Made by a program: the position numbers and the translations under genes. DNA of 64,000 bases, taken from contig NZ_CP089291.1 in the NCBI RefSeq assembly GCF_022818495.1, positions 2,621,501 through 2,685,500 of the forward strand. The letters are read 5' to 3'. Source of the DNA: Fodinisporobacter ferrooxydans (GTDB lineage Bacteria > Bacillota > Bacilli > Tumebacillales > MYW30-H2). Every line of letters begins with the position of its first letter. Within the stretch, counting starts at the first letter, position 1. A model generated the notes under the pieces. That model did no database searches. It was not told the DNA's origin and saw only the letters and a program-made list of their open reading frames with translations. This document shows, in pieces, positions 20,269 to 42,527 of the stretch.

Positions 20269-21735
20269 ATGAATGTTGTCCTACTATTAGTTGATACACT
20301 TCGATATGATTTTATGGGTTTTAACGGAAATAAAAATATTCAAACACCCAACATGGATCGTCTTGCGAAAAAATCAATAGTTTTCGACAATGCTTTTTTA
20401 GGATCTTATCCATGCATGCCTGCAAGAAGAGATATTTTGACGGGAAGGTATGAGTTCCCATGGAGAGGGTGGGGACCGTTAGAGCATGATGATAATGATC
20501 TTACCAATGTAATTACTTTGAAAAATAAACATACATCCATGTTAATAACGGATCATTTTCATTTATGGGAGAAAGGATCTGGAAACTATCACTTTAACTT
20601 TAGCGGTTACGAATTTATCAGGGGACAAGAATATGACAAGTGGAAAATTGAAATAGGAGAAGTTGACTATCCTGCAGCTCCTGAAAAACTCGCGGGACAC
20701 TGTAGAAACCCAAAAGAATATTTTGAACGAAATCGTCGGAATGGAGCATTCAGAAAGAATGAAGCAGATTATTTTCCAGCACAAGTTATGATGAATGCCG
20801 CTAACTGGCTAGAGAATAATAGAAAAAGAGAAAACTTCTTTTTAATGATTGACTGTTTTGATCCGCATGAACCATTTGATCCACCAAAACACTATATTGA
20901 CCTATATGACTCCGATTATAAAGGGGAAGAAGTGATTTGGCCAACATATGGTTGGAACACGCTATCAGAAGAAGAGACATGTCACGTTCGATCCTTATAT
21001 GCGGCGGAGTTGTCGATGACAGATAGATGGATCGGCTATTTGTTAGATAAAATGGAGCAATTGGGATTGATGGAAAATACTATGATTATATTTACAACTG
21101 ATCATGGACATATGTTTGGTGAGCATAATCTTATGGGTAAACCCTGGAGTGCTATCAGTGATTCCAATATGTACCAGGAAGTTGCCCACATTCCTATGGT
21201 CATTTACCATCCCGAAATTCGGAAGCCTGGCAAGCGAGTGTCACAATTGGTTCAACCTGTAGATATTTATCCAACAGTCCTGGATGCGTTTGGCATCGAA
21301 CATCCGGATGGTTTACACGGAAAAAGTCTGATTCAAATACTGTTAGATGATTCACAAGATTCTCAGGAAACCAGGAAATATGCATGTTTTGGTAGATATG
21401 GGGAAGCGATTAATATCACAGATGGTGAGTGGACATTATTTTTATGGCCATCAACCGAGAGTAATTCACCCTTGTATTGGTATTCCCAGTTGCCTCCCCA
21501 ATATGGACCTGAGAAAGCAATCGGCGGATACGAAAATGGCCGGTATCCTGTACATGTAGAAAGGGGAACACAAAATTCCGCATTATACAATATAAAAGAG
21601 GATTATAGGCAAACAGAAAATTTGATCGACAAAAGACCGGATGTTGCGGAAAGATTAAAGAAAAGAATAGTCGAATTTCTGGAAGAAATTGATGCACCTG
21701 AAGAACAGCTCATTCGACTGGGCCTTGCTAAATAA
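20269..21735 (+). CDS. Sulfatase 6 (Cys-type)
   Basis: A 488-aa type I sulfatase beginning MNVVLLLVDTLRYDFMGFNG. The formylglycine motif is CMPAR (Cys49) followed by RDILTG. Metal motif TTDHGHMFGEHN is present. Its VDTLRYD start and long C-terminal region set it apart from sulfatases 1, 2 and 7. ATG 20269 has AAGGGGGGAT upstream. It is second in the maturase operon, about 120 bases after the maturase stop. No export signal is seen. Confidence 0.92.
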   Translation: MNVVLLLVDTLRYDFMGFNGNKNIQTPNMDRLAKKSIVFDNAFLGSYPCMPARRDILTGRYEFPWRGWGPLEHDDNDLTNVITLKNKHTSMLITDHFHLWEKGSGNYHFNFSGYEFIRGQEYDKWKIEIGEVDYPAAPEKLAGHCRNPKEYFERNRRNGAFRKNEADYFPAQVMMNAANWLENNRKRENFFLMIDCFDPHEPFDPPKHYIDLYDSDYKGEEVIWPTYGWNTLSEEETCHVRSLYAAELSMTDRWIGYLLDKMEQLGLMENTMIIFTTDHGHMFGEHNLMGKPWSAISDSNMYQEVAHIPMVIYHPEIRKPGKRVSQLVQPVDIYPTVLDAFGIEHPDGLHGKSLIQILLDDSQDSQETRKYACFGRYGEAINITDGEWTLFLWPSTESNSPLYWYSQLPPQYGPEKAIGGYENGRYPVHVERGTQNSALYNIKEDYRQTENLIDKRPDVAERLKKRIVEFLEEIDAPEEQLIRLGLAK

Positions 21736-21824
21736 ATTTCCTTCAATTATTAACTCTCGCTCCAGCAGTACTGGGAAGGTTTTCAAACGAAGAAGTGATG
21801 TTATAAAATTTAAGGATGATTTAT

Positions 21825-23195
21825 ATGATCAAGCAACCAAACGTTATATTTATTATGACAGACCAACAAAGGTACGATACACTATCTGTAAATGGGAATA
21901 AAATTATTAAAACGCCCAATATAAATGAATTAGCAAAACAGTCGGCAATATTTGATCAAATGTTCGTAACAAGTCCGATTTGTGTACCTTCAAGAGCTTC
22001 TTTTATGACAGGTCGCTACCCAAATACGCACCGCTGCCGTGATCTTAATTATCCTCTTGCTGACGATGAAGTGAATCTAGCATCCATTTTTAAAAAAAGA
22101 GGATATCATCTTAGCTTGATTGGGAAAAATCATGTTTTTTCAAAAAATCAGCTAAATATGTTTGATTATTTATATTTACAATCCCATCAAAAATCGAAAA
22201 ATGTTACCAGAGAAGAACTTGCATATGATTCGGGAATTGACCCATGTCTACTCGATCAATATCCGACCGTTACAATTGCCGACCATGCCATATCATATTT
22301 GGAGAAACGAATTGACTCTCCGTTTTTTATGTGGGTTTCATTTCCCGATCCACATAGTCCGTATCAAGTTCCCGAACCCTATGCATCTTTATATGATCCG
22401 GAACGAATTCCTGAACCTAAAATAAAACCTGGCGAATTAATGACAAAACCAGAAGGGTTAAGAGAACTACAAAAGATTCAAAAAATGGATCATGTTTCGA
22501 TGAAGTCGATAAAAAAAATGATTTCCATTTATTATGGAATGATCACATTAATTGATGAAAGTATTGGTAGGATTTTGTCAAAGATTAAAGAATTAGAACT
22601 AGAGAAAGATACAATAATTATTTTTACGTCTGATCATGGTGATTATATGGGGGATCATGGTCTAGCCAGGAAAAGTTGGAATTTTTATGATTGTCTATTG
22701 AGAGTTCCATTTATGATTTCATGGCCTGGAGTTATTCCGATTCGCAGACATACAGACTGTTTAGTGGAAAATGTTGACCTGGCACCTACATTATTAGAGC
22801 TTTGTAATATCGATAAACAAACTGGAGTACAAGGGACCTCCTTGGCGCCTGTACTAAAAGGTGAGCAACAATTTTTAAAAGAATCGATTTATGCAACCAT
22901 TGGAACTCCTGCCAAAACAAAAGACTCAGTGAAAGCGGACACATCCGGAGGAGGCCAACCATTTTGGAATGTATCTGCCTTACAGGGAATGATGTTGCGA
23001 ACAAAAGAATGGAAACTATGCATCTACGCAAATTGTGAGGGGGAACTTTACAACCTTTCTGATGATCCAGAAGAACTCAATAACTTATACGGAAAGACCG
23101 ATACAAGAATAATTGAGTCACAATTAAAAACTCAATTACTTTTAACTAGACTAAGAGTAGATGATCCTTTACCTCCCTCAAGTTCCGGATTTTAA
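21825..23195 (+). CDS. Sulfatase 7 (Cys-type)
   Basis: A 456-aa type I sulfatase: NVIFIMTDQQRYDTL at the N terminus, formylglycine motif CVPSR at Cys53, late metal motif TSDHGDYMGDHG. ATG 21825 is favoured over ATG 21816, because AAGGATG is then correctly spaced. It closes the maturase operon and is followed by a strong terminator. It most resembles sulfatase 1 in overall pattern (ICVPSRASFMTGRYP). Substrate unknown. Confidence 0.92.
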   Translation: MIKQPNVIFIMTDQQRYDTLSVNGNKIIKTPNINELAKQSAIFDQMFVTSPICVPSRASFMTGRYPNTHRCRDLNYPLADDEVNLASIFKKRGYHLSLIGKNHVFSKNQLNMFDYLYLQSHQKSKNVTREELAYDSGIDPCLLDQYPTVTIADHAISYLEKRIDSPFFMWVSFPDPHSPYQVPEPYASLYDPERIPEPKIKPGELMTKPEGLRELQKIQKMDHVSMKSIKKMISIYYGMITLIDESIGRILSKIKELELEKDTIIIFTSDHGDYMGDHGLARKSWNFYDCLLRVPFMISWPGVIPIRRHTDCLVENVDLAPTLLELCNIDKQTGVQGTSLAPVLKGEQQFLKESIYATIGTPAKTKDSVKADTSGGGQPFWNVSALQGMMLRTKEWKLCIYANCEGELYNLSDDPEELNNLYGKTDTRIIESQLKTQLLLTRLRVDDPLPPSSSGF

Positions 23196-24001: not shown

Positions 24002-25367
24002 GTGCGTAATGGCGTAAGTAACGCGTTATAATAATTACATTTTTAGAAGCTTACCAGCATAAGTCCAACGAAAGGGTTTGGCCAAATGTTCGTTATAGTA
24101 ATCAATAAATGCGGCAATACGCTGCTCTAAATCTTCGACTGACACAAAGCTGGCGCGTTTATTCAGAAGACGGCGTGAGAGTATGCTAAACCAACATTCA
24201 ATTTGGTTGAGCCAAGAAGAATGTTTAGGCGTGTAGATCACGCGAATACGATGGCTAGGATCGGTAAGAAACGCGGCGCGGGATTCCATCGTTTTCAGAA
24301 CGCCGGACTTGCCCTTTTCACCAAGTGCTTCTTCCGGTATGCCGCACTCCGCAGCTACGAAACGAACCAGAGACTCGGACTTATGCGTGTTCAATTGATC
24401 CATCACGAGCAGGTAAGGTGCTGTTGGATCATGGCGGACCACTTGGCGGATATGCTCCACAAAGTCGGCTTCATTACGTGTCGCCTGAATCATCGGAGCG
24501 ATCAACTGGCCCGTGACGACATCGCGTGAAGCGGTAAGACTGGTCGTGCCATGCCGGATGTATTCCTGCTCGACGCGCTCCACTTGCCCCGGTTTCATCG
24601 GTTTCGTGGCCTGTGCGCGTTCTAACGCCTGAATACCCGTTTTTTCATCCGTGCATAAAACGTGTACTCCTTGTTCAGCGAGTTCCGATGCCTCATGATA
24701 AGCGTCACACACCTGTTTCACTTGTTGATGGTACAACTCGGGATCATCGATCTTCGGATTGAGCCATCCTTTCACTTGATGGGGTTTCAAGTCCGCTTCG
24801 TTTTAAAAAACGCCCGACCTGACGCGTCGAAATCGAGGAAACGATGCCACGTTTTACCGCTTCGCGGGCAAGCAATCCGGGTGTCCAATGACTAAACGGC
24901 AGTTCCAAGCTTTCGGGTGTCTGGCAGGCTAAGGTCAGGATATGGGCGACTTCCTCGGCTGTAAACGCAGACGGTCTTCCCGATCGTTGTTCGTCGGTTA
25001 AGGCCGCTTCAATTTTCGCTTTCAGCACATGAGGGCGATGGGTTTCGACTTGTTCCAGTTCCACCGCAAAAGTTGACCAGCGCTTCCTCCACCGCTTTAC
25101 GGTATCGACACTGAGGCTGAGACGTCGAGCCAGTTCGCAATTGTTGACCTCTTGTGCCGAAAGTAAAATGATCTTGGCTCGCTCGATGAAATGCAGCGGT
25201 GTGTGGGTTCCTTTGGCCATCTTCTCCAGCACTTTTCGTTGCCGTTCGCTCAGTACGATTTTAATTGCGGTTTGTTTATGCAAAATATATCCGTCCCATT
25301 CTATGAATCTTTTGCTTCACAGTATATCATAGATTCATAGTCATTGGATAATTCAGCCATTTTACAC
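24002..25367 (-). mobile_element. IS630-family insertion sequence
   Basis: A 1366-bp element flanked by TA at 24000-24001 and 25368-25369, the duplicated target expected for this family. The ends are inverted: GTGCGTAATGGC at the left, and the complement of the right end reads GTGTAAAATGGC (9 of 12 identical). It contains one transposase gene split by a frameshift. It sits inside a tetR fragment whose frame is restored by clean excision. Confidence 0.85.
24035..25283 (-). pseudogene. IS630 transposase, two frames (frameshifted)
   Basis: The first frame (25283 to about 24744) holds the helix-turn-helix part (CELARRLSLSVDTVKRWRKR). The second (about 24790 to 24035) holds the DDE domain: CTDEKTGIQAL, LLVMDQLNTHKS and LNQIECWFSILSRR supply the three acidic residues. 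The join FLKRSGL / KPHQVKGWLN is continuous in related proteins but here needs a +1 shift at CTTGAAAC, one base more than expected. It is either a mutation or a +1 programmed shift. I lean to mutation, since no obvious +1 slippery signal is present. Confidence 0.8.
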
Positions 25368-29445: not shown

Positions 29446-30561
29446 TTATTCTGGAAACTCAACAATAATGCGGCCTACGTTGACGGACGAGTGGTCGTGG
29501 AACGCCTCAAAGGCACTATTGATGTCGTCCAGAGAGACGCGAGACAATACCAGTTCATCCAACTGGAATTTCCCGTCTAAATACAGCTCAGCAATCAACG
29601 GGAAATCGCGGAACGGATGGACATCACCGTAAAAGCTTCCTTTTAATACTTTTCCGAGTCGGTGGAAACCGCCGGCGGGCAAAGCGAGTTCTCGTTGTGG
29701 GTTGAATGCGCCAATCACGATGGTCGTGCCACCCCGTCTCGTTCCTTGCCAAGCGGAGGAAGCGGCTTGAGTATTCCCTGTGCAGTCAATTGCAAAGTGA
29801 ACACCGACGCCGTCCGTCAGTTCTCGCAGCGCCTCAACCGTGTTTCCTTCGCCTACATTAACCGTGTGCGTAGCGCCAAACTTTTTAGCAATCTCAAGGT
29901 TTTGCTCTTTTAAGTCACAAGCAATGATTTTGCTCGCACCGGCGATTCTTGCACCTTGAATGGCGTTCACACCCACGCCTCCGATACCAAACACAGCAAC
30001 CGTGGACATGGGCGTAACTCTGGCAGCGCGGACTGCAGCGCCGAACCCGGTTGCGACACCGCATCCAATTAGAGAAGCTTGTGCAGCTGGCATGTTCTGC
30101 GGAATCTTAACGCAGCTCATTTCTGGGACGACAGTGTACTCCGCAAAGGTGGAGAGAAGAGAGTTGTGATAGACAATGTTGCCATCTTTGCTCAGACGGG
30201 AAGTCCCATCCAAGAGGGTTCCAGCAAACATTGGTCCGAACGCCGACTCACAAAGGTTCACTTGTCCAGCCTGACAGAACTCACAGGTCCCGCAGAACGG
30301 CACCCAACTCAGGGCGACTTTGTCCCCAGGCTTGACCGTCTTTACGGCAGAACCGACCTCAACTACGATGCCGGCTCCTTCGTGTCCAAGAATAGTAGGA
30401 ATCGGAGTTGTTTCATCGTTAATCGCGTTCAAGTCACTGTGGCAAACACCTGTAGCTAGTATTTTGACGAGAACTTCGTTTGCCTTGGGTTCTGCCAAAT
30501 CCACTTCCATGATTTCTAGGCTTCCCCAAACCTGGGTCATGACTGCAGCTTTCATTTTCAT
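29446..30561 (-). CDS. Zinc-dependent alcohol dehydrogenase
   Basis: A 371-aa medium-chain dehydrogenase that oxidises an alcohol to an aldehyde with NAD(P)+. Catalytic zinc ligands are in GVCHSDL (Cys, about residue 39) and GHEGAG (His and Glu, about 64-65); the structural-zinc Cys cluster is CGTCEFCQAGQVNLC. The Rossmann motif is GIGGVGVNAIQ. It is closest in pattern to class III/NDMA-type enzymes. It is the last gene of the nine-gene operon, 5 bases after the lyase gene. I infer that it oxidises the alcohol released by ether cleavage, feeding the aldehyde dehydrogenase encoded two genes upstream. Confidence 0.9.
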   Translation of the reverse strand: MKMKAAVMTQVWGSLEIMEVDLAEPKANEVLVKILATGVCHSDLNAINDETTPIPTILGHEGAGIVVEVGSAVKTVKPGDKVALSWVPFCGTCEFCQAGQVNLCESAFGPMFAGTLLDGTSRLSKDGNIVYHNSLLSTFAEYTVVPEMSCVKIPQNMPAAQASLIGCGVATGFGAAVRAARVTPMSTVAVFGIGGVGVNAIQGARIAGASKIIACDLKEQNLEIAKKFGATHTVNVGEGNTVEALRELTDGVGVHFAIDCTGNTQAASSAWQGTRRGGTTIVIGAFNPQRELALPAGGFHRLGKVLKGSFYGDVHPFRDFPLIAELYLDGKFQLDELVLSRVSLDDINSAFEAFHDHSSVNVGRIIVEFPE

Positions 30562-30566
30562 GTGTG

Positions 30567-31883
30567 TTACCCCTCGCTCGCGGTTGTAGTGTTAGATGTT
30601 ATTTGTTGTAACGTTTGTAGTGCAGGAAATGACTCCACCAAGGCCTGTTTAAGTGAAATCCCCTTCTCAGATGCTTGTTGGATGACGTTCGAAACTGCAT
30701 CATATCCATGTTCGTTTGCCATGCGCGTTACCATGGGTACCAAACTGTTGGCGTGGGCTTCGCATTGTTCTCGATTTACCGAGAGACCCTTGAGCGCGAA
30801 CTCTGTGAACAGCCCGAGGGCCTTTTCAACCATCCTGATTTCATCCATCACCAGTACGCCGGCAAACTCTTCGAATACGTTTAAGTCTGTGTCACCGTGG
30901 AGTTGTGCAGCCTCAATCGTTCGGGTCAGTCCCGTCACGAGAAAACCGCATTGCATCATCATTTCCGGCAATACCGGGTTGACCTTGCCCGGGAAGAAGG
31001 AAGACCCCGACTGTGTTTTCGGCAACCTCAATTCCCCGATGCCTGCCTCAGGTCCCGAGGACAGGAAGCGCAGATCCTGGCTGATTTTCACGAATACCTG
31101 AGCCAAGTTCGACAGGGATTGTGACAGCGCAACGAGCTCATCCACGTTTTGCGCTGCGTCGAAAAAATTTCGAGGTGAGACGAACATTTCTCCGCAGATG
31201 CTCCGAAGTTCAGCCAATACCAAGTTTCGATATCCAGGTGCGGCGCCTTCTCCGCTACCAATGACCGTTCCGCCGAGATTAACGGTGAACATCGACTTTT
31301 GGTGGTCAGCGATGGCTTGTGCACGTCTCTCAACGACATCGACGTACCCAGAAAAGCGATGACCTAAATCCATGGCCATGGCATCCATCATGCAAGTTCT
31401 GGCGATGGTTTGAATACCTGAAAACTCAACTTGTTTGGTTCGCAAAACAGAACTGCAATCATGAAGTTTCACAAGCAACTCATCCAGCAGTTCACAAATT
31501 GTAATTCGAATCGCTGTGTGGCAAACGTCAGCAGTAGATTGCGACCGGTTGATGTGTCCAATCGCATCCACCGCACTTCTTTTGGAAGCCAAGGTGTGAA
31601 TGACTTCATTGATATTCATGTTGATCCCGATGCCACCGCCGCCATGATAGACGTCCACCGGGTATTGCGCCTTGTCGAAGGACGCGATTGCCTGCTCGCA
31701 AGCTGTGACGATGTTGTCAGTAAATTGCGATGGCAACACTCCGGCTTTTACGTTTGCTCGTGCTGCCGCCATCTTGACCCGAAGCATGTTCCGAACATAT
31801 TCCGGATAGTCGCCAAGAGTTTTTCCAGAGAACGACATCGTCTCGACGCACTTTTTGGTTTGTTCCCCGTATAGAACTTCCAT
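30567..31883 (-). CDS. Aspartase/fumarase-superfamily lyase with altered amine pocket
   Basis: A 438-aa lyase of the aspartase/fumarase superfamily, which eliminates a group from a succinate-type substrate to give fumarate. The signature loop GSSFFPGKVNPVLPE (Ser294, Lys300, Asn302) has the aspartase-type ending KVNPVxPE. The carboxylate-binding residues QST (115-117) and Thr163 are kept. The three aspartase residues that hold the amino group are changed. The Thr of GTS is Ile85 (GGGIGINMN), the Asn of QSTND is Ala118 (QSTADV), and the His of GRTH is Cys164 (ARTCMMD). So the leaving group is probably not a free amine; a bulky or quaternary amine such as trimethylamine would fit. It lies between the ALDH and ADH genes. 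Confidence 0.88.
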   Translation of the reverse strand: MEVLYGEQTKKCVETMSFSGKTLGDYPEYVRNMLRVKMAAARANVKAGVLPSQFTDNIVTACEQAIASFDKAQYPVDVYHGGGGIGINMNINEVIHTLASKRSAVDAIGHINRSQSTADVCHTAIRITICELLDELLVKLHDCSSVLRTKQVEFSGIQTIARTCMMDAMAMDLGHRFSGYVDVVERRAQAIADHQKSMFTVNLGGTVIGSGEGAAPGYRNLVLAELRSICGEMFVSPRNFFDAAQNVDELVALSQSLSNLAQVFVKISQDLRFLSSGPEAGIGELRLPKTQSGSSFFPGKVNPVLPEMMMQCGFLVTGLTRTIEAAQLHGDTDLNVFEEFAGVLVMDEIRMVEKALGLFTEFALKGLSVNREQCEAHANSLVPMVTRMANEHGYDAVSNVIQQASEKGISLKQALVESFPALQTLQQITSNTTTASEG

Positions 31884-31916: not shown

Positions 31917-33407
31917 TTACAATGCAACCCAGATGGATTTTACCTTGGTATAGGACTCGAGCGAGTGAATCGCGTACTCTTTGCCCCAACCACTTTGTTT
32001 AAAACCACCAAATGGCGCTGCAAAATCATAGCAGCCGTATTTATTGATAAAGACCATACCAGCTTCAAGACGGGAAGCAACGCGATGAGCACGACTGATG
32101 TCCTTCGTCCAAAGACCTGCAGCCAACCCGTAGGTCGTGTCGTTCGCCATGCGAACCACTTCGTCTTCATCGGTAAATGGGATAATCGGCAATACAGGTC
32201 CAAAAATTTCGTCTTGAGCAATCCTCATCTTGTTATCGACATCAGCGAAAATCGTCGGACGGACGAAATATCCGTCCGCATTACTTCCGGTCGTATCACG
32301 ATGTCCGCCCGCTACAAGGAGAGCACCATCTTCTACGCCGTATTCGATGTAGCGGAGGATTTTCTTCATGTGGGCCTTGGAAGATTGGGCGCCTTGGTGA
32401 ACATTCGGATCGAACGGATTGCCAAGCACATAGGAGTTTGCCAGATCTGCGATTCGAGACACAAACGTATCGTAGTGTTTCTTGTGTACAAACAGACGGG
32501 TTGGTGCGGAACACTTCTCACCTTTATGCGTGAACAGGCCATAGAAAGAGCGTTCAATAGCAAAATCGATGTCCGGAACGTCCTCGAAGACGATGTTGGG
32601 GCTCTTTCCGCCGAGCTCTAGGGAGATGGTTTTTAAGTTCGAATCAGCTGATCCGTGCAGTAACTTTTTACCGACTGCAGTGCTGCCTGTGAAGGCGATT
32701 TTGTCGACCTTCATGTGGTTTGAAATGATCGATCCAACCTCACCGCTGCCAAGGACGAGATTGATCACGCCTTTGGGAAGTCCCACTTCTTCATGAAGGA
32801 TTTCAAACAGGCGAATCGCGGAGAGCGATGTCACTTCAGACGGTTTCAACACAACTGTGTTGCCCATCGCGAGTGCTGGCGCGAGTTTCCAGGATGCCAT
32901 CAGAATCGGGTAGTTCCACGGAACAATCAGTCCGCAAATGCCGACAGGTTCGCGCGCCGTATAGTTCAGAAATTCGCTATCGACCGGAGAGGTTTCACCG
33001 TAAAACTTGTCAGTCCAGCCAGCGTAGTAGTCGAAGATGTCCGCTGTTTCAATGAGGTCGTCGTACCACGATTCGCTGTACAACTTGCCGTTATCCAACG
33101 TCTCCAGCGTTGACAGCTCGCATTGGTGGCGACGGATCGCGTCCGCGATTTGGTGCAAGACTTTTGCGCGTTCCTTCCTTGACATCTTACGCCATGGTCC
33201 GTTGTGGAACGCTTCGTGTGCTGCATCCACTGCAGCGTCCACATCCGCTTTGGTTGCACGATAAAAGGAACCCAAAACCTGACCGTTCGAAGGATTGATG
33301 GTTTCCATGGTTTCATTGTCTTCGCTGGTGCGAAACTCACCTTTGATATACATGCGGCGGGGTTTCGCCAACCACTCTTGAGCCCATTCCAATTTTGCTG
33401 CTTCCAT
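31917..33407 (-). CDS. Aldehyde dehydrogenase (BetB-like)
   Basis: A 496-aa NAD(P)+-dependent aldehyde dehydrogenase. Key motifs: VPWNYPILMASWK (oxyanion Asn), LELGGKSPN (general base Glu), GEKCSAPTR (catalytic Cys) and EIFGPVLPI. ATG 33407 is chosen for the GGGGAGGAG eight bases upstream; a longer in-frame start reaches into a decayed gene. The general pattern resembles betaine-aldehyde dehydrogenases, though that family is hard to split by eye. It is 33 bases before the lyase gene. I infer it makes the dicarboxylic substrate of that lyase. Confidence 0.9.
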   Translation of the reverse strand: MEAAKLEWAQEWLAKPRRMYIKGEFRTSEDNETMETINPSNGQVLGSFYRATKADVDAAVDAAHEAFHNGPWRKMSRKERAKVLHQIADAIRRHQCELSTLETLDNGKLYSESWYDDLIETADIFDYYAGWTDKFYGETSPVDSEFLNYTAREPVGICGLIVPWNYPILMASWKLAPALAMGNTVVLKPSEVTSLSAIRLFEILHEEVGLPKGVINLVLGSGEVGSIISNHMKVDKIAFTGSTAVGKKLLHGSADSNLKTISLELGGKSPNIVFEDVPDIDFAIERSFYGLFTHKGEKCSAPTRLFVHKKHYDTFVSRIADLANSYVLGNPFDPNVHQGAQSSKAHMKKILRYIEYGVEDGALLVAGGHRDTTGSNADGYFVRPTIFADVDNKMRIAQDEIFGPVLPIIPFTDEDEVVRMANDTTYGLAAGLWTKDISRAHRVASRLEAGMVFINKYGCYDFAAPFGGFKQSGWGKEYAIHSLESYTKVKSIWVAL

Positions 33408-33787: not shown

Positions 33788-34327
33788 CTAGCGCTCTAGC
33801 TTCCATTTATTCATCTTGAAGAGTCTCCGCGAGTGAACGAAACCACCAGCTAGAGAATGCAACTCGGTCCGCGTGACAAACGCGTTCGGGTCGACTCTGT
33901 GGATTTCTTCCATGACTTCTCGGATGGTCTTGCGTCGAATGACGACGAGCAGTACCTCGCGAGTGCCGTCTCTCCCTAAGCCTTCCCAAGATGTAACGGC
34001 CACGCCGAGACTCCGCAGTGTTCCCGCCATATTCAAGTTGGTGGTAATGATATGCAGCGCCATATTACCGACCGCAATTCGATCTTCCACCCAACTTCCA
34101 ACAAGCGTTCCAACTGCGTACCCAGCTGCATAAGCAAGAATCCGCCAAGGATCAGACAAGTGTGTGACAACCAGAGTTAACGCCGAGACATATAACATCT
34201 GTTCGAACAATGCCGTGAACGACGCTATCACCCTTTGTCCCTTCACTAAGATGATCCACCGGGTTGTCATAATGGTCACGTAAATGACCTCAAGCACAAA
34301 AATCAGGAGAGGAAATAGCAACAACAT
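33788..34327 (-). CDS. UPF0316/DUF2179 membrane protein
   Basis: A 179-aa protein with three N-terminal membrane segments (LLLFPLLIFVLEVIYVTIMT; VSALTLVVTHL; ILAYAAGYAVGTLVG) followed by a DUF2179-like cytoplasmic domain (REVLLVVIRRKTIREVMEEI). ATG 34327 has GAGGGGG just before it. The family is widespread in Firmicutes without a firm function; some DUF2179 proteins bind c-di-AMP-like ligands, but I cannot show that here. It is inside the operon, 147 bases after the binding-protein gene and 9 bases before the decayed enolase gene. Confidence 0.75.
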   Translation of the reverse strand: MLLLFPLLIFVLEVIYVTIMTTRWIILVKGQRVIASFTALFEQMLYVSALTLVVTHLSDPWRILAYAAGYAVGTLVGSWVEDRIAVGNMALHIITTNLNMAGTLRSLGVAVTSWEGLGRDGTREVLLVVIRRKTIREVMEEIHRVDPNAFVTRTELHSLAGGFVHSRRLFKMNKWKLER

Positions 34328-35414: not shown

Positions 35415-36029
35415 TTATTTACCGTATTTTTGGCTCATGCGTTTTTCCAGATACACCATAACCAGCTCTACTACGATGGCGAGCAAAGCTGCCGGAATCG
35501 CCCCCTCCAGCAACAATTGATTGTCTAAAATTTGCAGTCCTCTAAAAATCAAGACCCCAAGACCCCCAGCTCCGACGAAGACCCCAATGGTGGCAATGCC
35601 AATGGAAGTCACGAGTGAGACCCGAAACCCCGCCAGAATGACAGGAATCGACATCGGCAACTCCACTCGCCAGAAAATTTGACTCGGTTTCATCCCCATC
35701 CCTTTGGCGATATCCAGGTAGACTGAGTCAACCGATGTGAGACCCTCGTAGGTGTTTTGCAGGACCGGCATAATGCCGTACAGTCCTAACGCGACCACAA
35801 GAGTCGTGTTTCCAAGCCCAAACACAAGCAAGAGAATTGCCAAGAGCGCAATACTTGGAAACGTTTGTATCACTTCAGCGATACCCATAAAGAAGGTTGC
35901 GAGTTTCGGACGCTTGCGACAAACAATGGCCAACAGGAGACCAATGACGCCACCGGCGACCGTCCCCAACACGGAGAGATAGAAATGTGTCCAGGTTTGA
36001 GAAGCGATATCTCCAGAACCAAAGTTCAT
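35415..36029 (-). CDS. Osmoprotectant ABC transporter permease (second)
   Basis: A 204-aa membrane subunit of the OpuC/ProW family. It has the characteristic stretch IQTFPSIALLAILLLVFGLG and the coupling loop LDIAKGMGMKPSQIFWRVEL (about residue 105-125). It overlaps the preceding permease gene by 4 bases (ATGA). It forms the channel with that protein and the CBS-containing ATPase. Confidence 0.9.
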   Translation of the reverse strand: MNFGSGDIASQTWTHFYLSVLGTVAGGVIGLLLAIVCRKRPKLATFFMGIAEVIQTFPSIALLAILLLVFGLGNTTLVVALGLYGIMPVLQNTYEGLTSVDSVYLDIAKGMGMKPSQIFWRVELPMSIPVILAGFRVSLVTSIGIATIGVFVGAGGLGVLIFRGLQILDNQLLLEGAIPAALLAIVVELVMVYLEKRMSQKYGK

Positions 36030-36673
36030 TTTTTCGCCCCCCGTAGTCCGGCAGGTGTCACCAAGCGTCGAATGAATGTGAAGATGAGTCCGGCTACAAA
36101 GGCCATCAACGCGGTTGGGACTGAGCCCGACAGAATTAAATCATTGTTGTAGTTGTCAATTCCAGCAAAAATCAGGTTTCCAAATCCGCCAGCCCCAATC
36201 AAGGCTGCTACAGTGGCCCAACTCACAAGATAAATGGTAGATAAACGGAGCCCTGCCACAATGAGTGGGGCGGACAACGGAAGTTCAACCTTGATGAGTC
36301 GTTGCCAAGATGTCATTCCCATTCCTTTGGCTACATCGATGAGTTCCGGATCGACCGATTTCACACCCGTGTAGGTGTTGCGTACAATCGGCAACAATGA
36401 ATAAAGGAACAAAACGATGAGAGCCGGCGTGATCCCAATGCCAAGAATCGGTAACAACAGCGCAAAAAATGCTAGACTAGGTATGGTCTGAATGATGGAC
36501 AAAACACTGATGACTGGCCCCGAAAGTTTACGGCTTCTCGTCAAATAGATGCCGAGGGGAATGGACAACACTGCACCTACCACAAGCGAAAAGCCCACTA
36601 GAAACAAATGCTGCCAAAACGCCTGTGTAATTTGGCCACCATAGGTACTCCAGATGTAGCTGAGGTAACTCAT
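36026..36673 (-). CDS. Osmoprotectant ABC transporter permease (first)
   Basis: A 215-aa OpuC/ProW-type permease. Key stretches: LSIIQTIPSLAFFALLLPIL and the coupling loop IDVAKGMGMTSWQRLIKVEL. It overlaps the ATPase gene by 4 bases and the next permease gene by 4 bases, so the transporter genes are tightly translationally coupled. Confidence 0.9.
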   Translation of the reverse strand: MSYLSYIWSTYGGQITQAFWQHLFLVGFSLVVGAVLSIPLGIYLTRSRKLSGPVISVLSIIQTIPSLAFFALLLPILGIGITPALIVLFLYSLLPIVRNTYTGVKSVDPELIDVAKGMGMTSWQRLIKVELPLSAPLIVAGLRLSTIYLVSWATVAALIGAGGFGNLIFAGIDNYNNDLILSGSVPTALMAFVAGLIFTFIRRLVTPAGLRGAKK

Positions 36674-37755
36674 GCAACCCCGCCCCCAAACAACTCTTGT
36701 GCCACCTTCAAAACAGAGGTTTTGGTGATAACCCCGACAAGGCGGTTTGATTCATCCAGAACCGGTATCTCGTTCACTTCCATCAAAATCGGAACCACTT
36801 CTTTGGCTGGCACAGAATAACCAAAGGCGGCTGACTTCGTAACTTCCAATGCGCCTCCATCGGAAACGCTTTCTTTACGAACACTTCCGAGATACGTCAT
36901 TGAAGAATCCACTAGATAGAATTGGTCTACATAAGGCGCCATGTACAAGTGCCCTTGGGCCGTTTCCTTATAGAGTTTCAATTCGCGCTCAGCTACATCT
37001 ACTGCTGTCTTCCTGGTTTGGCCAAAACCTATTCGACGCCCCACAAACGAGGAGACGAATTCGTTTTGCGGTCTGTGCACGATATCTTCAGGCGTACCCA
37101 CTTGGACAATCCTTCCGGTTTCAAAGACGGTGATTCTATCTCCCAAGCGCAACGCTTCATCCATGTCGTGCGTGACGAATATAATCGTCTTTTGCAATCG
37201 TTCCTGCAACCGCTTCAACTCGGTTTGGAGGGTCTCGCGGCTAATCGGGTCGAGTGCGCCAAAAGGTTCGTCCATCAAGATAATCGGGGGGTCAGCTGCC
37301 AGCGACCGCAAGACGCCAATACGTTGTTGCTGACCACCAGACAGTTGCCGCGGATAGCGATGTGCGAAGTCTTCGTATTTCATATCTACGAGGTTCAACA
37401 GTTCCCGGATACGCGCTTCGCGCTTGTCTTTCGGCCATCCAAGCAGGCTCGGGACGAGATCAATGTTGTCGCGAATGGTCATGTGCGGGAACAGACCGGT
37501 TTGTTGGACCGTGTAGCCAATGCTCCTACGCAACTCGTGCTCGTTGTAGCTTTTAATTTCACGGCCGTCAATTTCAATCTTTCCGTAGGTCGGTTCTTCC
37601 AGTCGGTTCACCATGCGAAGCGTGGTGGTCTTTCCGCAACCGGACGGACCAATGAACACCATCAGTTCGCCTGTCTTGACTTCCAGATTCAAATCGCTAA
37701 TTGCAGCCTTGTTTCCCTGGTAAACTTTTGTAACGTGTTCGAATGTTACCGTCAT
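36670..37755 (-). CDS. Osmoprotectant ABC transporter ATPase with CBS region
   Basis: A 361-aa ATPase of the OpuCA/ProV family. Walker A GPSGCGKTT, signature LSGGQQQR, Walker B IILMDEPFGALD. The C-terminal part (about 240-361) has a CBS-like end (PILMEVNEIPVLDESNRLVG), which in family members senses ionic strength or nucleotides. The ATG follows AGGGGAG. It is third in the operon after SDR and kinase, so transporter and catabolic enzymes are made together. Confidence 0.92.
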   Translation of the reverse strand: MTVTFEHVTKVYQGNKAAISDLNLEVKTGELMVFIGPSGCGKTTTLRMVNRLEEPTYGKIEIDGREIKSYNEHELRRSIGYTVQQTGLFPHMTIRDNIDLVPSLLGWPKDKREARIRELLNLVDMKYEDFAHRYPRQLSGGQQQRIGVLRSLAADPPIILMDEPFGALDPISRETLQTELKRLQERLQKTIIFVTHDMDEALRLGDRITVFETGRIVQVGTPEDIVHRPQNEFVSSFVGRRIGFGQTRKTAVDVAERELKLYKETAQGHLYMAPYVDQFYLVDSSMTYLGSVRKESVSDGGALEVTKSAAFGYSVPAKEVVPILMEVNEIPVLDESNRLVGVITKTSVLKVAQELFGGGVA

Positions 37756-37813: not shown

Positions 37814-39253
37814 TCAATCGCCAAAGATGGAGTACGCTCTTTTATAGATTTCATCGCTGCTGTAGTGAGGAATGGTTCGATAGACTTCTTCATTAAACTT
37901 TTGATAAAAAGCGTAGTTCTCAGCAATCGGCTGAACGGTGTCTTGGCGCTTGACCATGTATTGAACAGCTTCATCTACGCTGTCGTAGATGCCAAGTGCG
38001 GTCGCAACTAGAATTGCAGAGCCTAATCCAGCAGCGTCGCTGAAGACGTTTCTCGACACAGGCTTTCCAAACACGTCCGCGAAGATTTGGACCATCAAGT
38101 CACTTTTTGATCCGCCGCCAGACAACACCAGACTCTCCAGCTCAATGCCGAGTTCCTGGCACATTTCGTCGGTTCGGTTCTTCATGGTCAGTGCAATCGC
38201 CTCCAATATTGAGCGGTACATGTGCGCTCGAGTGTGTGAGGCATTGAACCCGAGTATAGAACCGCGTTTGTATGGTGCATCGGACGGCGCTAGCCAATCG
38301 AGAACAGTCATCAAGCCGTTGCATCCAGGCGGCACTTGGCTCGCTTCGCGGTTTAGCAATTCCTCCGCAGAAATGCCCAACTCCCGAGCTTCACTGGCAA
38401 CACCGCCGCCTAGCAATTTGGTCAGCCAACTGACTGTCCACATCCCGCGGCGAATGCCAAAGCTTTCGTACAAATAGCGGTTCGGAACGGAGGAGAAATT
38501 CGTCCACAGGTGACTCGTCTCTTTCAAGTTCTTCGGGCCGTGAATCATCGCTGCGATGTACGTCCCCAGTGAAACAAGCGCAGTATGACCTTCCAAGGAG
38601 CCCGATCCCAACGCTTCTACCGCTTTATCGTTGGCGGTCGCGATGACCGGAAGCCCTGTCGGTATGCCCGTCTCCCATGACGCCTCAGCGGTCACCTTGC
38701 CCAGAACTGTGCCAGGCATTTGCAGTTGGAACAGCATTTCTTTCGGGATTTGGAAGTGCTTGATGACCTCCGGGTCGTCACTCCAGTCCCACGTATCCGT
38801 GTCAATCGGCCACTGACCTTGGTAATTGGCAGCCGTGTCAACAAACCGATCAGTGAAACGGTGTGTAATGTATCCCGAAGAAGTCGTCACATAGCGAACG
38901 GAATCGTCCTCATGTTCATATGGACTTGATACACGCACATCCATCCAACTCAATACCGGATATGCAAGCCTGCCGTCTTCTCGAAGAAGCGCCCGGCAAA
39001 AGCGAATGGTGCATAAGCCAACGCCAATGATGTCATTAGGATTTCCCGTGAAATTCTCCATGGCTTTGCGACACGCGATGACGATTGACTCCCACAGGTC
39101 GTCATCCGGATGTTCAACGTGCCCTGGTTTCGGCAGGTTCATCGGACGCAAAGCCTGTTTGCCTTCTGAAACGACTCGACCTTCTGTGTCAAAAATGGTA
39201 ACCTTCGAGCTTTGTGACCCATTATCTACACCGATAATGTATTTCGTACCCAT
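37814..39253 (-). CDS. FGGY-family carbohydrate kinase
   Basis: A 479-aa sugar/polyol kinase. N-terminal phosphate-binding motif GVDNGSQSSKVTIFD, a catalytic-Asp region in VLSWMDVR, and the C-terminal LVLSGGGSKSDLMVQIFADV. FGGY kinases phosphorylate glycerol, xylulose, ribulose and similar polyols. The ATG follows GAGGTGCTGAC. Beside the GlpP-type leader, an SDR and an alkylglycerone-phosphate-synthase-like enzyme, a glycerol-derived substrate is likely. The same four families (kinase YgcE, SDR YgcW, FAD enzyme YgcU, GlpP-like YgcP) occur together in the uncharacterised ygc locus of E. coli. Confidence 0.9.
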   Translation of the reverse strand: MGTKYIIGVDNGSQSSKVTIFDTEGRVVSEGKQALRPMNLPKPGHVEHPDDDLWESIVIACRKAMENFTGNPNDIIGVGLCTIRFCRALLREDGRLAYPVLSWMDVRVSSPYEHEDDSVRYVTTSSGYITHRFTDRFVDTAANYQGQWPIDTDTWDWSDDPEVIKHFQIPKEMLFQLQMPGTVLGKVTAEASWETGIPTGLPVIATANDKAVEALGSGSLEGHTALVSLGTYIAAMIHGPKNLKETSHLWTNFSSVPNRYLYESFGIRRGMWTVSWLTKLLGGGVASEARELGISAEELLNREASQVPPGCNGLMTVLDWLAPSDAPYKRGSILGFNASHTRAHMYRSILEAIALTMKNRTDEMCQELGIELESLVLSGGGSKSDLMVQIFADVFGKPVSRNVFSDAAGLGSAILVATALGIYDSVDEAVQYMVKRQDTVQPIAENYAFYQKFNEEVYRTIPHYSSDEIYKRAYSIFGD

Positions 39254-39298: not shown

Positions 39299-40075
39299 TT
39301 AACGAACCAGGTACCCGCCGTCAACAACAAGGAGATGCCCGTTCACATAGTCGGATGCCTTGCTCGCCAAAAACACCGTAGCTCCCATTAAGTCTAACGT
39401 ATCGCCCCAACGATTGGCCGGGATGTGATCGAGAATACGTTGATTCGTTTCCGGGTTGCTTCTCGTTACTTTCGTGATTTCGGTTGCATAGTAGCCAGGT
39501 GCAATGCCATTGACTTGAATGTTGTATTGCCCTAGTTCATCCGCGTACGCCTTCGTAAACCCTGCTAACGCATGCTTTGTAGCTGCGTAAGCGGGCGACA
39601 TTTGGCCGCCAAGGAACGAAAAGAGCGAACAGACATTGATGATTTTCCCGCTGCGTTGCGGCACCATGCGCTTTGCAGCTTCGCGGGACAAGTCAAAAGC
39701 AGCAGTCAAGTTTACATCTATCATCGGGTCCCAATGGTGTCTTTCAAACTCGAGAACCGATGCCAACTTGCAGATGCCTGCGCTGTTAACTAAGATGTCG
39801 ACACTCCCGTATGCGTTTACACAACCATCGATAATCGTCTTGGCAGCTCCATCAGCCGTGATGTCAATCTTCAAAAACTCCATCTTGACACCTTCAGCTT
39901 CAATAAGCGCCCGGGTTTCGCCGCCATCATCCATCACACTCGGAATAAAGAGGTTCGCTCCGGCTTTCGCCAAGGCTGAAGCGAATGCCTGACCGAGTCC
40001 TGTGTTGCCGCCGGTGACAATTGCGTTCTTGCCTTTCAGTGAAAAGAAGTCCATTGAAAAATCTGAGATAGTCAT
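39299..40075 (-). CDS. Short-chain dehydrogenase (YgcW/KduD-like)
   Basis: A 258-aa SDR that oxidises or reduces a secondary alcohol with NAD(P). The cofactor motif is TGGNTGLGQAFASALAKAG, the active-site Ser is in NVCSLFSFLGG and Tyr-x3-Lys is YAATKHALAG. The ATG follows AAGGAG and GGTG. It is the first gene of the operon, 45 bases before the kinase gene and directly behind the antiterminator-type leader. I infer oxidation of the C2 hydroxyl of a glycerol derivative to a dihydroxyacetone derivative; deoxygluconate-type dehydrogenation is the main alternative. Confidence 0.9.
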   Translation of the reverse strand: MTISDFSMDFFSLKGKNAIVTGGNTGLGQAFASALAKAGANLFIPSVMDDGGETRALIEAEGVKMEFLKIDITADGAAKTIIDGCVNAYGSVDILVNSAGICKLASVLEFERHHWDPMIDVNLTAAFDLSREAAKRMVPQRSGKIINVCSLFSFLGGQMSPAYAATKHALAGFTKAYADELGQYNIQVNGIAPGYYATEITKVTRSNPETNQRILDHIPANRWGDTLDLMGATVFLASKASDYVNGHLLVVDGGYLVR

Positions 40076-40126
40076 TTCACCTTGCTCCTTTTTATAAAAA
40101 CTACTTTAAAATAGCGTGTGGAAAAA

Positions 40127-40164
40127 CAAAAAAGCGAACACCCAAGAGAGGGTTCGCTTTTCTC
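40127..40164 (-). terminator. Leader terminator of the SDR operon (antitermination target)
   Basis: On the minus strand AAGCGAAC pairs with GTTCGCTT, with an inner CCC/GGG, then a run of T. It lies between the promoter and the SDR gene, so the operon would be switched off unless antitermination occurs. The 5' side is part of the element GCTAGAG...GAGAAAAGCGAACCC (40176 to 40150) that recurs in the divergent leader. Confidence 0.8.
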
Positions 40165-40190
40165 ATCAGCTCTAGCAACCACTTTCCTCG

Positions 40191-40219
40191 ATATTACATC
40201 CATATAGAAACTGTGTCAA
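40191..40219 (-). promoter_or_regulatory. Promoter of the SDR-to-ADH operon
   Basis: On the minus strand TTGACA (40219-40214) and TAATAT (40196-40191) are 17 bases apart, a good sigma-A promoter. Transcription would start near 40184 and read straight into the leader terminator. Confidence 0.7.
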
Positions 40220-40234
40220 TGCCATTATACGAAA

Positions 40235-40250
40235 TTTTTAGCGCTTACAT
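40235..40250. promoter_or_regulatory. Candidate CcpA (cre) site between the divergent promoters
   Basis: On the minus strand ATGTAAGCGCTAAAAA resembles the catabolite-responsive element consensus (TGWAANCGNTNWCA, with one or two departures at the end). It lies just upstream of both -35 boxes. Carbon-source repression of the locus would make sense. The assignment is by eye only. Confidence 0.45.
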
Positions 40251-40257
40251 TTTTCTG

Positions 40258-40287
40258 TTGACATCATAGGGGGGATGGTACTATGAT
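40258..40287 (+). promoter_or_regulatory. Promoter of the FAD-oxidase gene
   Basis: TTGACA (40258-40263) and TATGAT (40282-40287) with an 18-base spacer. It is divergent from the SDR operon promoter. Transcripts would pass through the terminator at 40316. Confidence 0.6.
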
Positions 40288-40315
40288 GTGAATCAGGCGC
40301 TAGAGGTCTGAGAAA

Positions 40316-40345
40316 AGCGAACCCTGATTGGGGTTTGCTTTTTTT
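40316..40345 (+). terminator. Leader terminator of the FAD-oxidase gene (antitermination target)
   Basis: AGCGAACCC (40316-40324) pairs over 9 bp with GGGTTTGCT (40331-40339), followed by seven T. It lies 45 bases before the gene. The sequence from GCTAGAG (40299) through GAGAAAAGCGAACCC is nearly identical to the divergent leader, as expected if one RNA-binding antiterminator (the GlpP-like protein at 41958) controls both. Confidence 0.8.
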
Positions 40346-40389
40346 GCGTTTCTGGGCAAATTTCAGAACACAGAAAAGGAGTTCTTAAG

Positions 40390-41838
40390 ATGTCATTGAC
40401 CCGAGAGCAGGTTGTTCAAGGCGTAAAAGGAATCGTTAGCGAGGAACGTGTCATCACTGACAAACATATATTGAAAGAAAGTAGTGTCGACCGCTTCCGA
40501 AAGTACGAATTCATCTCCGGTGTGTATACGCAGCACATTCCGGCAGCGATTGTCAAACCAGAAAACACCGAACAAGTCGCTGAAGTTCTTAAGTATTGCA
40601 ACGAAAACGGCATCAACGTCATTCCGCGTACCGGTTTCTCTGCACTGGAGCAAATGTTGGAATCCGTCAAAGAAAACCACATCGTGCTCGATGGTTCAGG
40701 CATGAATAAAATCATTAAGATTGACGAATGCAACATGCAAGTGACTTGCCAATGCGGCGTGAACCTGCAAGAGCTCGATGAAATTCTGCAGGCCAAAGGA
40801 TATACGACGGCTCACTCACCTCAATCAAAACCGCTTGCACAAATGGGCGGATTGGTCGCAACCCGAAGCATTGGTCAATTCTCCACCCTGTACGGCGGCA
40901 TTGAAGACATGGTAGTTGGACTCGAAGCCGTGTTCCCGAACGGCGAGATCACCCGAATCAAAAACGTGCCACGGCGCGCAGCAGGCCCAGACATTCGCCA
41001 CGTCATCATTGGCAACGAGGGCGCGCTATGTTACATCACCGAAGTAACTGTGAAAATCTTCAAATACATGCCGGAAAACAACTTGTTCTACGGCTACACG
41101 CTAGACAGCATGAAAACTGGTTTCGAGATTCTGCGCCAAGTGATGGTAGAGGGTTACAAGCCGTCCGTCGCCCGTCTCTACGATGCGGCCGATGCTCAAG
41201 GCCACTTCTCGCATTTTGCAAACGATGAATGCGTGCTCGTGTTTATGGCAGAAGGACCGAAAGGCATTGCAGAGGCTACCGGTGCAGGCATCGAAGCCGT
41301 CGTCAAACAGTACCCAGAGTGTCAAAAAGTCGACAGCCAATTGATTGAAGATTGGTTCGCTCGCTTGAACTGGGGTCTAGAGCAAGTGGAACAAGAACGC
41401 ATTGAAATTAGTGAAACGAAGAACATGGGCTTTACCACCGAAGTAGCTGGATGTTGGGATTGCATTCACGAAATCTACACTCGCTCGATTGAACGGGTAA
41501 AGAACGAGATTCCAGACATCACCTGGATGGGTGGCCACTCGTCTCACAGCTATCTAAACGGCACCAACATGTACTTTGTCTACTACTACGATGTCAACTG
41601 TGCACCGGAAGAAGAGATTCACAAGTATCACAATCCAATTAACAAAATCATCGTCGAAGAAGCCCTCAAGGCTGGTGGTACCATGGTTCATCACCACGGT
41701 GTCGGGAAAGCGAGAGCACCTTGGATTAAAGAAGAATACGGTTCTTCGTTCTATATCTTAAAGACGTTGAAAAACGCGTTCGATCCGAACAACATCATGA
41801 ACGCTGGCAACATCATCCCGGTTGACTTTTTGAAATAA
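40390..41838 (+). CDS. FAD-linked oxidase, alkylglycerone-phosphate-synthase-like (YgcU-like)
   Basis: A 482-aa flavoprotein of the vanillyl-alcohol-oxidase/PCMH fold. FAD-binding part: PAAIVKPENTEQVAEVLKYC and VTCQCGVNLQELDEIL; then LAQMGGLVATRSIGQFSTLY. The C terminus has HHHGVGKARAPW (His434-436). The HHHGVGK motif is a hallmark of alkylglycerone phosphate synthase, where the His triplet is needed for making the ether bond of alkyl-DHAP. Here, next to a kinase, an SDR and a GlpP-like regulator, the enzyme may run the chemistry backwards and split an O-alkyl ether of DHAP. An ordinary hydroxy-acid dehydrogenase remains possible. It is transcribed alone, divergent from the operon. Confidence 0.88.
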   Translation: MSLTREQVVQGVKGIVSEERVITDKHILKESSVDRFRKYEFISGVYTQHIPAAIVKPENTEQVAEVLKYCNENGINVIPRTGFSALEQMLESVKENHIVLDGSGMNKIIKIDECNMQVTCQCGVNLQELDEILQAKGYTTAHSPQSKPLAQMGGLVATRSIGQFSTLYGGIEDMVVGLEAVFPNGEITRIKNVPRRAAGPDIRHVIIGNEGALCYITEVTVKIFKYMPENNLFYGYTLDSMKTGFEILRQVMVEGYKPSVARLYDAADAQGHFSHFANDECVLVFMAEGPKGIAEATGAGIEAVVKQYPECQKVDSQLIEDWFARLNWGLEQVEQERIEISETKNMGFTTEVAGCWDCIHEIYTRSIERVKNEIPDITWMGGHSSHSYLNGTNMYFVYYYDVNCAPEEEIHKYHNPINKIIVEEALKAGGTMVHHHGVGKARAPWIKEEYGSSFYILKTLKNAFDPNNIMNAGNIIPVDFLK

Positions 41839-41957: not shown

Positions 41958-42527
41958 TTAAACGTTGTCCCAAATGTCTGTGGAAGTAGAGCAAATCGAT
42001 ACAGCTCCTGCTTTCAGCGCAGCGACTACGTCGTCCTTTTCACACACTAACCCACCGGCAATGATAGGAACATTGACGATATCTCGTACCCAGCTAATCA
42101 CCTTGGGCATACAACCCGGCAGAATTTCAATGCAGTCTGGAATGGACGTCTCAATTTGCTTCGGAAGGCTATGGAACGAGAATGAGTCCACCAGAAAGAA
42201 CCGGTGAATCGTAAAGAATCCTTGTGCTTTCGCTGCTTTGATAATCGGCCCTTTGGTACTTATGATACCGTCCGCCTTGGTCACTTGTTTAATGAAATCC
42301 ACGACGATTTCCTTGCTGCTTGTGCCCTTCACTAAATCTACATCTACAAAAGCGTACTTTCCTGCACTTTTGACTCTGTCAACTATCGTCCCAATGTTGC
42401 AAATGTCCCCGTATAGGACAAAGACAATATCACAACTGGATTGAAGCACATTTTCAAGTCCCGTATCATCTTTGATTCCTGCAACAATGGGATTGTCTTT
42501 AAACAAACTACGGAAGTCTTCTTTCAT
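41958..42527 (-). CDS. GlpP-family antiterminator (YgcP-like)
   Basis: A 189-aa TIM-barrel-like protein of the glycerol uptake operon antiterminator family. Visible features: FKDNPIVAGIKDDTGL at the start, VDVDLVKGTSSKEIVVDFIK in the middle and EILPGCMPKVISWVRDIVNV then PIIAGGLVCEKDDVVAALKA, a phosphate-binding type strand-loop. In B. subtilis GlpP with glycerol-3-phosphate binds glp leader RNA and prevents termination. Here two twin leaders nearby carry the likely target. The ATG follows AGGAGGTAC. It is convergent to the FAD-oxidase gene and is transcribed separately, presumably constitutively. Confidence 0.88.
   Translation of the reverse strand: MKEDFRSLFKDNPIVAGIKDDTGLENVLQSSCDIVFVLYGDICNIGTIVDRVKSAGKYAFVDVDLVKGTSSKEIVVDFIKQVTKADGIISTKGPIIKAAKAQGFFTIHRFFLVDSFSFHSLPKQIETSIPDCIEILPGCMPKVISWVRDIVNVPIIAGGLVCEKDDVVAALKAGAVSICSTSTDIWDNV

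Follow-up and report, generated by a model that had tools for sequence, protein, structure and literature searches.

The active-site residues and gene neighborhood of a lyase in the window (the whole stretch of 64,000 nucleotides that was analyzed) suggest that it may split N,N,N-trimethylaspartate rather than aspartate. The gene (30567..31883, minus strand) encodes a 438-amino acid protein of the aspartase/fumarase superfamily, and its prediction as an N,N,N-trimethylaspartate (TMA) lyase is based on profiles, an alignment, a clade of homologues, and an AlphaFold2 model. In the proposed pathway homoserine betaine would be oxidized to trimethylaspartate, which would then give fumarate and trimethylamine. 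We infer every substrate and reaction step of this pathway from residues, a clade, a gene neighborhood, and control loci that were observed directly, and we consider the pathway about evenly balanced between right and wrong.

The lyase belongs to the aspartase/fumarase superfamily by its fold and by homology over its full length. Its open reading frame begins with ATG, contains no internal stop codons, and is full length. It scores 197.9 bits with the Lyase_1 profile PF00206 (cut-off 27), AspB (PDB 1j3u) matches it in phmmer with an E value of 6e-66, and structural alignments show 31-33% identity to AspB and AspA. Enzymes of the superfamily are homotetramers with a composite active site. Structure prediction, which the initial annotation had proposed, gave an AlphaFold2 monomer model built from ten sequences (pLDDT 83.8, pTM 0.84, with the SS-loop poorly resolved). 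The model has the aspartase fold, and its best structural matches are aspartases with Z scores of 43-44; fumarases reach 42.5. AspB with bound L-Asp (3r6v) aligns at Z 43.4 over 422 residues with an rmsd of 3.0, and the Foldseek value for this pair is 3.8e-25. The lyase falls under the cut-offs of the more specific models, with 302.7 bits in aspA TIGR00839 (far under its cut-off of 681.2), 362.4 bits in the aspartase model NF008909 (cut-off 510), and 277 bits in fumC_II (cut-off 664.75), where Cys164 takes the place of His188. The window genome has four further Lyase_1 genes, and two of them have standard motifs. L018 is an aspartase (736.5 bits in aspA against the cut-off of 681.2, with the NF008909 cut-off also passed), and L001 is a fumarase (778.6 bits in fumC_II against 664.75). 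The window lyase is thus not the sole enzyme of its type in the cell, which has an aspartase and a fumarase alongside it.

Compared with the AspB pocket, the lyase retains all but one of the four residues for the second carboxylate and lacks both reported amine contacts. Equivalent residues were mapped position by position from the phmmer alignment of the lyase and AspB of Bacillus sp. YM55-1. The lyase shares with AspB and AspA the fold, the catalytic serine loop, and most of both carboxylate-binding motifs. It differs from AspB in having Ile85 for Thr101 (codon 31629..31631), Ala118 for Asn142 (31530..31532), and Cys164 for His188 (31392..31394; all on the minus strand). The initial annotation had assigned these positions by eye to the Thr of GTS, the Asn of QSTND, and the His of GRTH, and its numbering is exact. 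Gly86 replaces Ser102, and in the loop Phe296 and Phe297 replace Ile320 and Met321, so that SSIMPGKVN of AspB reads SSFFPGKVN (Ser294 to Asn302; 30978..31004, minus strand) in the residue mapping and in a 52-row alignment. Residues that are kept include Ser140/Thr141 (116/117), Thr187 (163), Ser318/Ser319 (294/295), Lys324 (300), and Asn326 (302). The sequence GSSFFPGKVN at 293-302 agrees with GSSxxPxKxN, which is described as the SS-loop consensus of the superfamily (PMC13411527). The catalytic Ser294 and the carboxylate residues Lys300, Asn302, and Thr163 are among those retained, as the initial annotation had said of the first three.

The role of these residues in AspB suggests what kind of substrate the lyase has. 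In AspB the amine is contacted by His188 and Asn142, the alpha-carboxylate pocket consists of Thr187, Met321, Lys324, and Asn326, and the beta-carboxylate alone is expected to be mechanistically essential, as stated in one engineering study (PMC11744663). In the acrylate-accepting AspB variants of the same study all four pocket residues were swapped for less polar ones (PMC11744663). The lyase keeps three of them (T163, K300, and N302, with Phe297 at the Met321 position), so its substrate is probably still a succinate. The description of all three lost residues as amino-group ligands is borne out for Asn142 and His188. We take Thr101 to be a binder of the beta-carboxylate and perhaps of the amine too, and if it does bind the beta-carboxylate, its loss needs explaining under the trimethylaspartate reading.

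The same changes are found throughout a clade of 22 homologues, which form one side of a branch with support of 100/100. The homologues come from genome contigs (nine loci, two of them distant), plasmids, and whole genomes, and they were aligned with 30 other rows; L046 and L055_10763 among the 52 rows are one gene. Examination of the three positions in close homologues, as had been suggested, supports the pattern. Position 85 is Ile in 21 of the 22 (L027 keeps Thr) and Thr in 28 of the 30 others. Asn is present at position 118 in all 30 others and in none of the clade, which has Ala in 6, Ser in 15, and Thr in 1. Position 164 is Cys in every clade member, while the others have His (21 of 30), Cys (7), or Gln (2). 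Both amine-contact residues are thus absent from all 22 rows, and Thr187, Lys324, and Asn326 have their equivalents in all 22. Positions 296-297 are FF in 22/22 compared with IM in 30/30. The clade also has Thr at position 159 (22/22; Lys in 30/30 others) and Glu at position 279 (20/22; Arg in 25/30 others), and these charge changes, judged from the alignment, would suit a cationic substrate. Position 80 is the polar His in 20 of the 22 and Gln in 25 of the 30 others, and His80 may lie near the pocket.

The clade is rare. The closest relative of the window lyase is that of G386 (68%). In the class and phylum samples, each of 398 genomes, up to four candidates were scored per genome, so the counts are lower bounds. 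The class sample has the lyase in at least 7 genomes at E 1e-85 or better, and the phylum sample in at least 1, the window's own. One further class-sample genome has a match at 8e-83, a 36% relative outside the clade. In one family the lyase was found in 8 of 245 genomes. Within single genera it was found in 2 of 26 genomes for that of G293, in 1 of 15 for that of G386, and in none of the three searched for that of G248. Eight of the 22 clade loci are from one family, and these eight are therefore not independent. Some copies are damaged. L030 has the loop FFVAKSN, probably a deletion scar, and an open reading frame on a Peribacillus plasmid (L035:8944-11514) joins a truncated clade lyase with a truncated BCCT carrier, which probably arose by internal deletion of an operon running from lyase to BCCT. 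Seven relatives at 32-38% identity, two of which are the same gene, have Cys164 but keep Asn118. In two loci a second lyase of this kind, 32-36% identical, lies near the first (L053:4871-6295 and L054:6941-8329).

The neighbors of the lyase point to the oxidation and import of a quaternary amine. In the window the lyase lies between a Zn-dependent alcohol dehydrogenase (29446..30561), which profiles place near class III and NDMA-dependent alcohol dehydrogenases but under the cut-offs of those models, and an aldehyde dehydrogenase (31917..33404) that resembles betaine aldehyde dehydrogenase (TIGR01804, 547.9 bits, under the cut-off of 668.6). These are followed by a DUF5698/DUF2179 protein identified by profiles (33788..34327; 15 of 22 loci) and an OpuC-type quaternary-ammonium ABC transporter, all on the minus strand. 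The transporter consists of a substrate-binding protein with the OpuAC domain PF04069 (34475..35398), permease 2 (35415..36029; BPD_transp_1), permease 1 (36026..36673; assigned by position and by homologues in lyase loci), and a betaine/proline/choline ATPase (36670..37755) that exceeds the cut-off of the proV family (TIGR01186, 359.5 bits against 326.6). An aldehyde dehydrogenase accompanies the lyase in 21 of 22 loci and a Zn alcohol dehydrogenase in 19, with one at 46% in G350 besides. A quaternary-ammonium transporter is present in 17 loci, as the OpuC ATPase in 15 and a BCCT carrier in 2. Nine loci have a second aldehyde dehydrogenase similar to succinate semialdehyde dehydrogenase (SSADH; 634.8 bits, under the cut-off of 646), nine have an Fe-dependent alcohol dehydrogenase (229 bits in the GbsB choline dehydrogenase model and 211 bits in that for 4-hydroxybutyrate dehydrogenase, both under cut-off), nine have malic enzyme (six confirmed by Pfam), and five have IclR-type regulators. 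Neither the OpuC ATPase nor BCCT is within reach in G386, the Priestia plasmid, G382, G122, and a delta MAG, the last two being near contig ends. G386 has an NCS1 carrier instead, and on the Priestia plasmid and in G382 a YgcS-like MFS carrier is encoded divergently from the lyase.

An enolase-superfamily gene of the mandelate racemase (MR) type is present in 12 of the 22 loci, for example at L025:11312-12448, L026:4141-5292, and L051:12272-13402. All 12 proteins have KIR in place of the catalytic KxK motif. Most of the best 60 of 167 listed solved relatives are either unassigned proteins of the mandelate-racemase type or sugar-acid dehydratases. A first reading of this protein as a betaine racemase was dropped in view of these relatives and the altered motif; the protein may racemize or dehydrate the betaine.

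Genes around aspartase-type genes are different. None of the genes that neighbor the lyase was found, at the same thresholds, in 20-kb stretches around 17 aspartase-type control genes. OpuC or BCCT is present in 17 of 22 clade loci and 0 of 17 control loci (p 5e-7), in a comparison where the 17 control stretches come from 11 genomes, all of the order to which the window belongs, the clade loci are from a wider range, and lyase loci supplied the neighborhood reference proteins. Control genes were picked by their GRTH motif, and the four checked (L018, L007, L008, and L019) pass the NF008909 cut-off. For the count of 22 loci, duplicate fetches of one genome were merged (L025/L050/L064 and L026/L052). 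Four loci were drawn from two stretches each, by which G813 and G851 gain sequence beyond the 20 kb of the controls, while for G350 and G293 the stretches overlap. The neighborhoods of the homologues, which the initial annotation had proposed to check, together with the conserved carboxylate pocket give genomic support to its suggestion of a succinate with a non-standard, perhaps fully methylated, amine.

Homoserine betaine fits the gene set as a whole. The two neighboring dehydrogenases, the SSADH-like and Fe-dependent enzymes, and malic enzyme fit a flow from a C4 alcohol to a C4 dicarboxylate and on to fumarate and malate. Import of a quaternary amine, oxidation of a primary alcohol, a lyase with a dicarboxylate site and an apolar pocket, and malic enzyme are all matched by homoserine betaine (2-trimethylammonio-4-hydroxybutyrate), a natural compound. 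The OpuC-type system would import it, and the alcohol dehydrogenase and then the aldehyde dehydrogenase would oxidize it at C4, through the semialdehyde to N,N,N-trimethylaspartate (2-trimethylammonio-succinate), the predicted substrate of the lyase. In the lyase the amine pocket would have become apolar in order to hold the trimethylammonium group; Ser294 would take the proton from C-beta, an aci-carboxylate would form, and neutral trimethylamine would depart to leave fumarate. The G386 operon contains a gene similar to AhlS-type homoserine lactonases (424.8 bits, under the cut-off of 475), which independently hints at homoserine. As an osmolyte, homoserine betaine is documented (PMC13403184, PMC5864184). 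Against the trimethylaspartate reading, OpuC and BCCT systems are broad and point to a quaternary amine but not to which one, five of the 22 loci have neither of them within reach, L027 has Thr at position 85, His80 is polar, and the enolase-superfamily gene does not fit clearly into the pathway.

Other substrates were considered for the lyase. It may split a secondary or tertiary N-alkyl aspartate (N-methyl, N,N-dimethyl, or with a bulkier amine) and not a quaternary one, which is unlikely but deserves to be taken seriously. EDDS and iminodisuccinate lyases act on N-alkyl aspartates with bulkier amines, a smaller alkyl amine would also fit the apolar pocket, and the relatives with Cys164 and Asn118 may be such enzymes; one of them is L036, whose annotation places it between FAD-dependent and D-amino-acid oxidases. 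However, the OpuC and BCCT transporters point to a permanently charged quaternary compound, and the clade, unlike those relatives, also lacks the equivalent of Asn142. An improbable alternative is that a compound of the homocholine type is oxidized to beta-alanine betaine, from which the lyase would release trimethylamine and acrylate. The alcohol dehydrogenase, the betaine-aldehyde-dehydrogenase-like enzyme, and the quaternary-amine transporter would suit such an amino-alcohol too, but malic enzyme and the SSADH-like enzyme point to C4, and throughout the clade the alpha-carboxylate pocket keeps its Thr, Lys, and Asn, which are replaced in the acrylate-using variants of AspB (PMC11744663) and whose presence disfavors acrylate as product.

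Little weight can be given to another leaving group on succinate, such as a sulfonium or other onium. The quaternary-amine transporters would be the same, and OpuC-type systems carry sulfonium analogues too, but nothing in the loci points to sulfur and we know of no natural alcohol precursor of such a compound. The catabolism of N-acyl-homoserine by lactonase, alcohol dehydrogenase, and aldehyde dehydrogenase, with elimination of the amide from N-acyl-aspartate, is very improbable; the lactonase-like gene of G386 agrees with it but occurs in just one of the 22 loci, an amide leaves poorly, and the OpuC and BCCT transporters would be left unexplained. An ordinary L-aspartase with a drifted pocket, which would account for the fold and catalytic loop, is rejected, since the amine ligands are lost across the whole clade, the genome keeps L018 as an aspartase over the curated cut-off, and the neighborhood is unlike that of the 17 controls.

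If the lyase does act on trimethylaspartate, the homoserine betaine in the window and five other loci was probably first freed from a glycerol ether, deacylated DGTS. Homoserine betaine is the head group of DGTS, a betaine lipid. Upstream of the transporter genes are an FGGY kinase (37814..39253, minus strand) that is predicted to phosphorylate the glyceryl moiety and an SDR dehydrogenase (39299..40075, minus strand) that is predicted to oxidize glycerol C2. A divergent intergenic region (40076..40389), whose best promoter-like match at 40258-40287 (plus strand) is a consensus match only, separates the SDR gene from that of an FAD protein (40390..41838, plus strand) predicted to cleave the glyceryl ether. 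A glycerol-3-phosphate responsive antiterminator follows at 41958..42527 on the minus strand. The flavoprotein has FAD_binding_4 and FAD-oxidase_C domains, and its nearest solved relatives are alkyl-DHAP synthases (1.2e-43; glycolate oxidase 3.4e-32), with which it has the stretch HHHGVGK in common. Alkyl-DHAP synthase, a eukaryotic ether-lipid enzyme, makes a glycerol ether, whereas the window flavoprotein is proposed to break one. In the full betaine-lipid route, a possible but tentative prediction, glyceryl-homoserine betaine would be imported, phosphorylated by the kinase, and oxidized by the SDR, and the flavoprotein would run the chemistry of alkyl-DHAP synthase backwards, giving DHAP or a relative and freeing homoserine betaine for conversion to fumarate and trimethylamine. 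An ether bond links homoserine betaine with glycerol in DGTS; according to a 2023 review, the enzymes breaking it had not yet been identified (PMC9892843).

The ether module is found both with and without the lyase. The SDR, kinase, and flavoprotein genes are present together in 6 of 22 lyase loci (the window, G350, the Priestia plasmid, G813, G851, and a Clostridia MAG). In the Clostridia MAG the genes for SDR, flavoprotein, kinase, lyase, aldehyde dehydrogenase, and alcohol dehydrogenase are consecutive, and in L029 the module directly abuts the lyase. The flavoprotein was found in 4 of 15 lyase genomes searched, each time within about 12 kb of the lyase, and was absent from the other 11. 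Co-occurrence of the two in 398 genomes gives a Fisher p of 0.0026 when the window genome is counted and is weak when it is left out (p 0.059), and the test assumes that both searches drew the same genomes and uses counts that are lower bounds, with up to four candidates scored per genome. Three genomes of the class have the module but no lyase match at E 1e-80. An OpuC transporter adjoins it in one of these (G272), a BCCT carrier is nearby in another (G201), and the third has an MFS-like carrier, judged by place and sequence. The module also occurs with an OpuC system on an Enterococcus plasmid. The module records of E. coli, Ilyobacter, and Streptomyces have no OpuC- or BCCT-type transporter nearby. 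In E. coli, Enterococcus, and Ilyobacter the flavoprotein gene has ETF genes next to it, which suggests that there the protein acts as a dehydrogenase and does not cleave ethers in a redox-neutral way.

The genes ygcW-ygcU-ygcE-ygcP of E. coli resemble the window module. Identity is 77% for the SDR (YgcW), 66% for the flavoprotein (YgcU), 51% for the kinase (YgcE), and 54% for the antiterminator (YgcP). In contrast to the window, MFS transporters and ETF-like genes adjoin the E. coli set, and neither OpuC nor the trio with the lyase is present in the 24 kb examined. In the E. coli region L082 (7858-17312), ygcS is homologous to an MFS carrier gene that two loci have next to the lyase, and yqcE, ygcQ, ygcR, and ygcO are among the ygc genes. 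Of 5426 E. coli genomes, 5049 have DNA similar to ygcU, and in 1216 the similarity covers at least 80% of the query. Judged by title and the start of the abstract, none of the literature matches listed was a paper on the function of ygcW, ygcU, ygcE, or ygcP. If the ether-cleavage reading is true, it gives a clue to these orphan genes and a hypothesis that can be tested.

A trimethylaspartate lyase would have counterparts among known enzymes. Members of the aspartase/fumarase superfamily are described that release water, ammonia, nitrite, or larger groups (PMC13411527). The nitrosuccinate lyase CreD carries out beta-elimination of a group other than ammonia from a succinate to give fumarate (PMC13411527), as is proposed for the window lyase, but the latter scores only 33.6 bits in the nitrosuccinate lyase model (cut-off 650). 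Ergothionase (ergothioneine trimethylamine-lyase) would share with it the 1,2-elimination of trimethylamine from an alpha-betaine. Ergothionase, however, is reported to resemble the histidine, phenylalanine, and tyrosine ammonia-lyases and not aspartase (PMC13405746), and it was not among the 55 solved-structure matches of the lyase at E 0.001, so this identity was rejected. One abstract gives choline, carnitine, betaine, and ergothioneine as sources of trimethylamine. If the prediction is true, the pathway is a new source beside these, and trimethylamine is added to the leaving groups of the superfamily. The locus names candidates for cleavage of the DGTS ether bond and for the later C-N cleavage, and would, if the betaine-lipid route is true, be the first enzyme set for breaking that bond. 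Among the literature matches listed, from a search with subscription journals mostly outside it, there was no paper on a pathway for the breakdown of homoserine betaine, trimethylaspartate, or DGTS.

Two other groups of genes lie next to the locus or near it in the window. At 18865-23195 a radical-SAM protein with a SEC-C-like tail, which by eye resembles sulfatase maturases, is encoded with two sulfatase-like genes. At 24035-25283 an IS630-like transposase, also recognized by eye, is split into two overlapping open reading frames.
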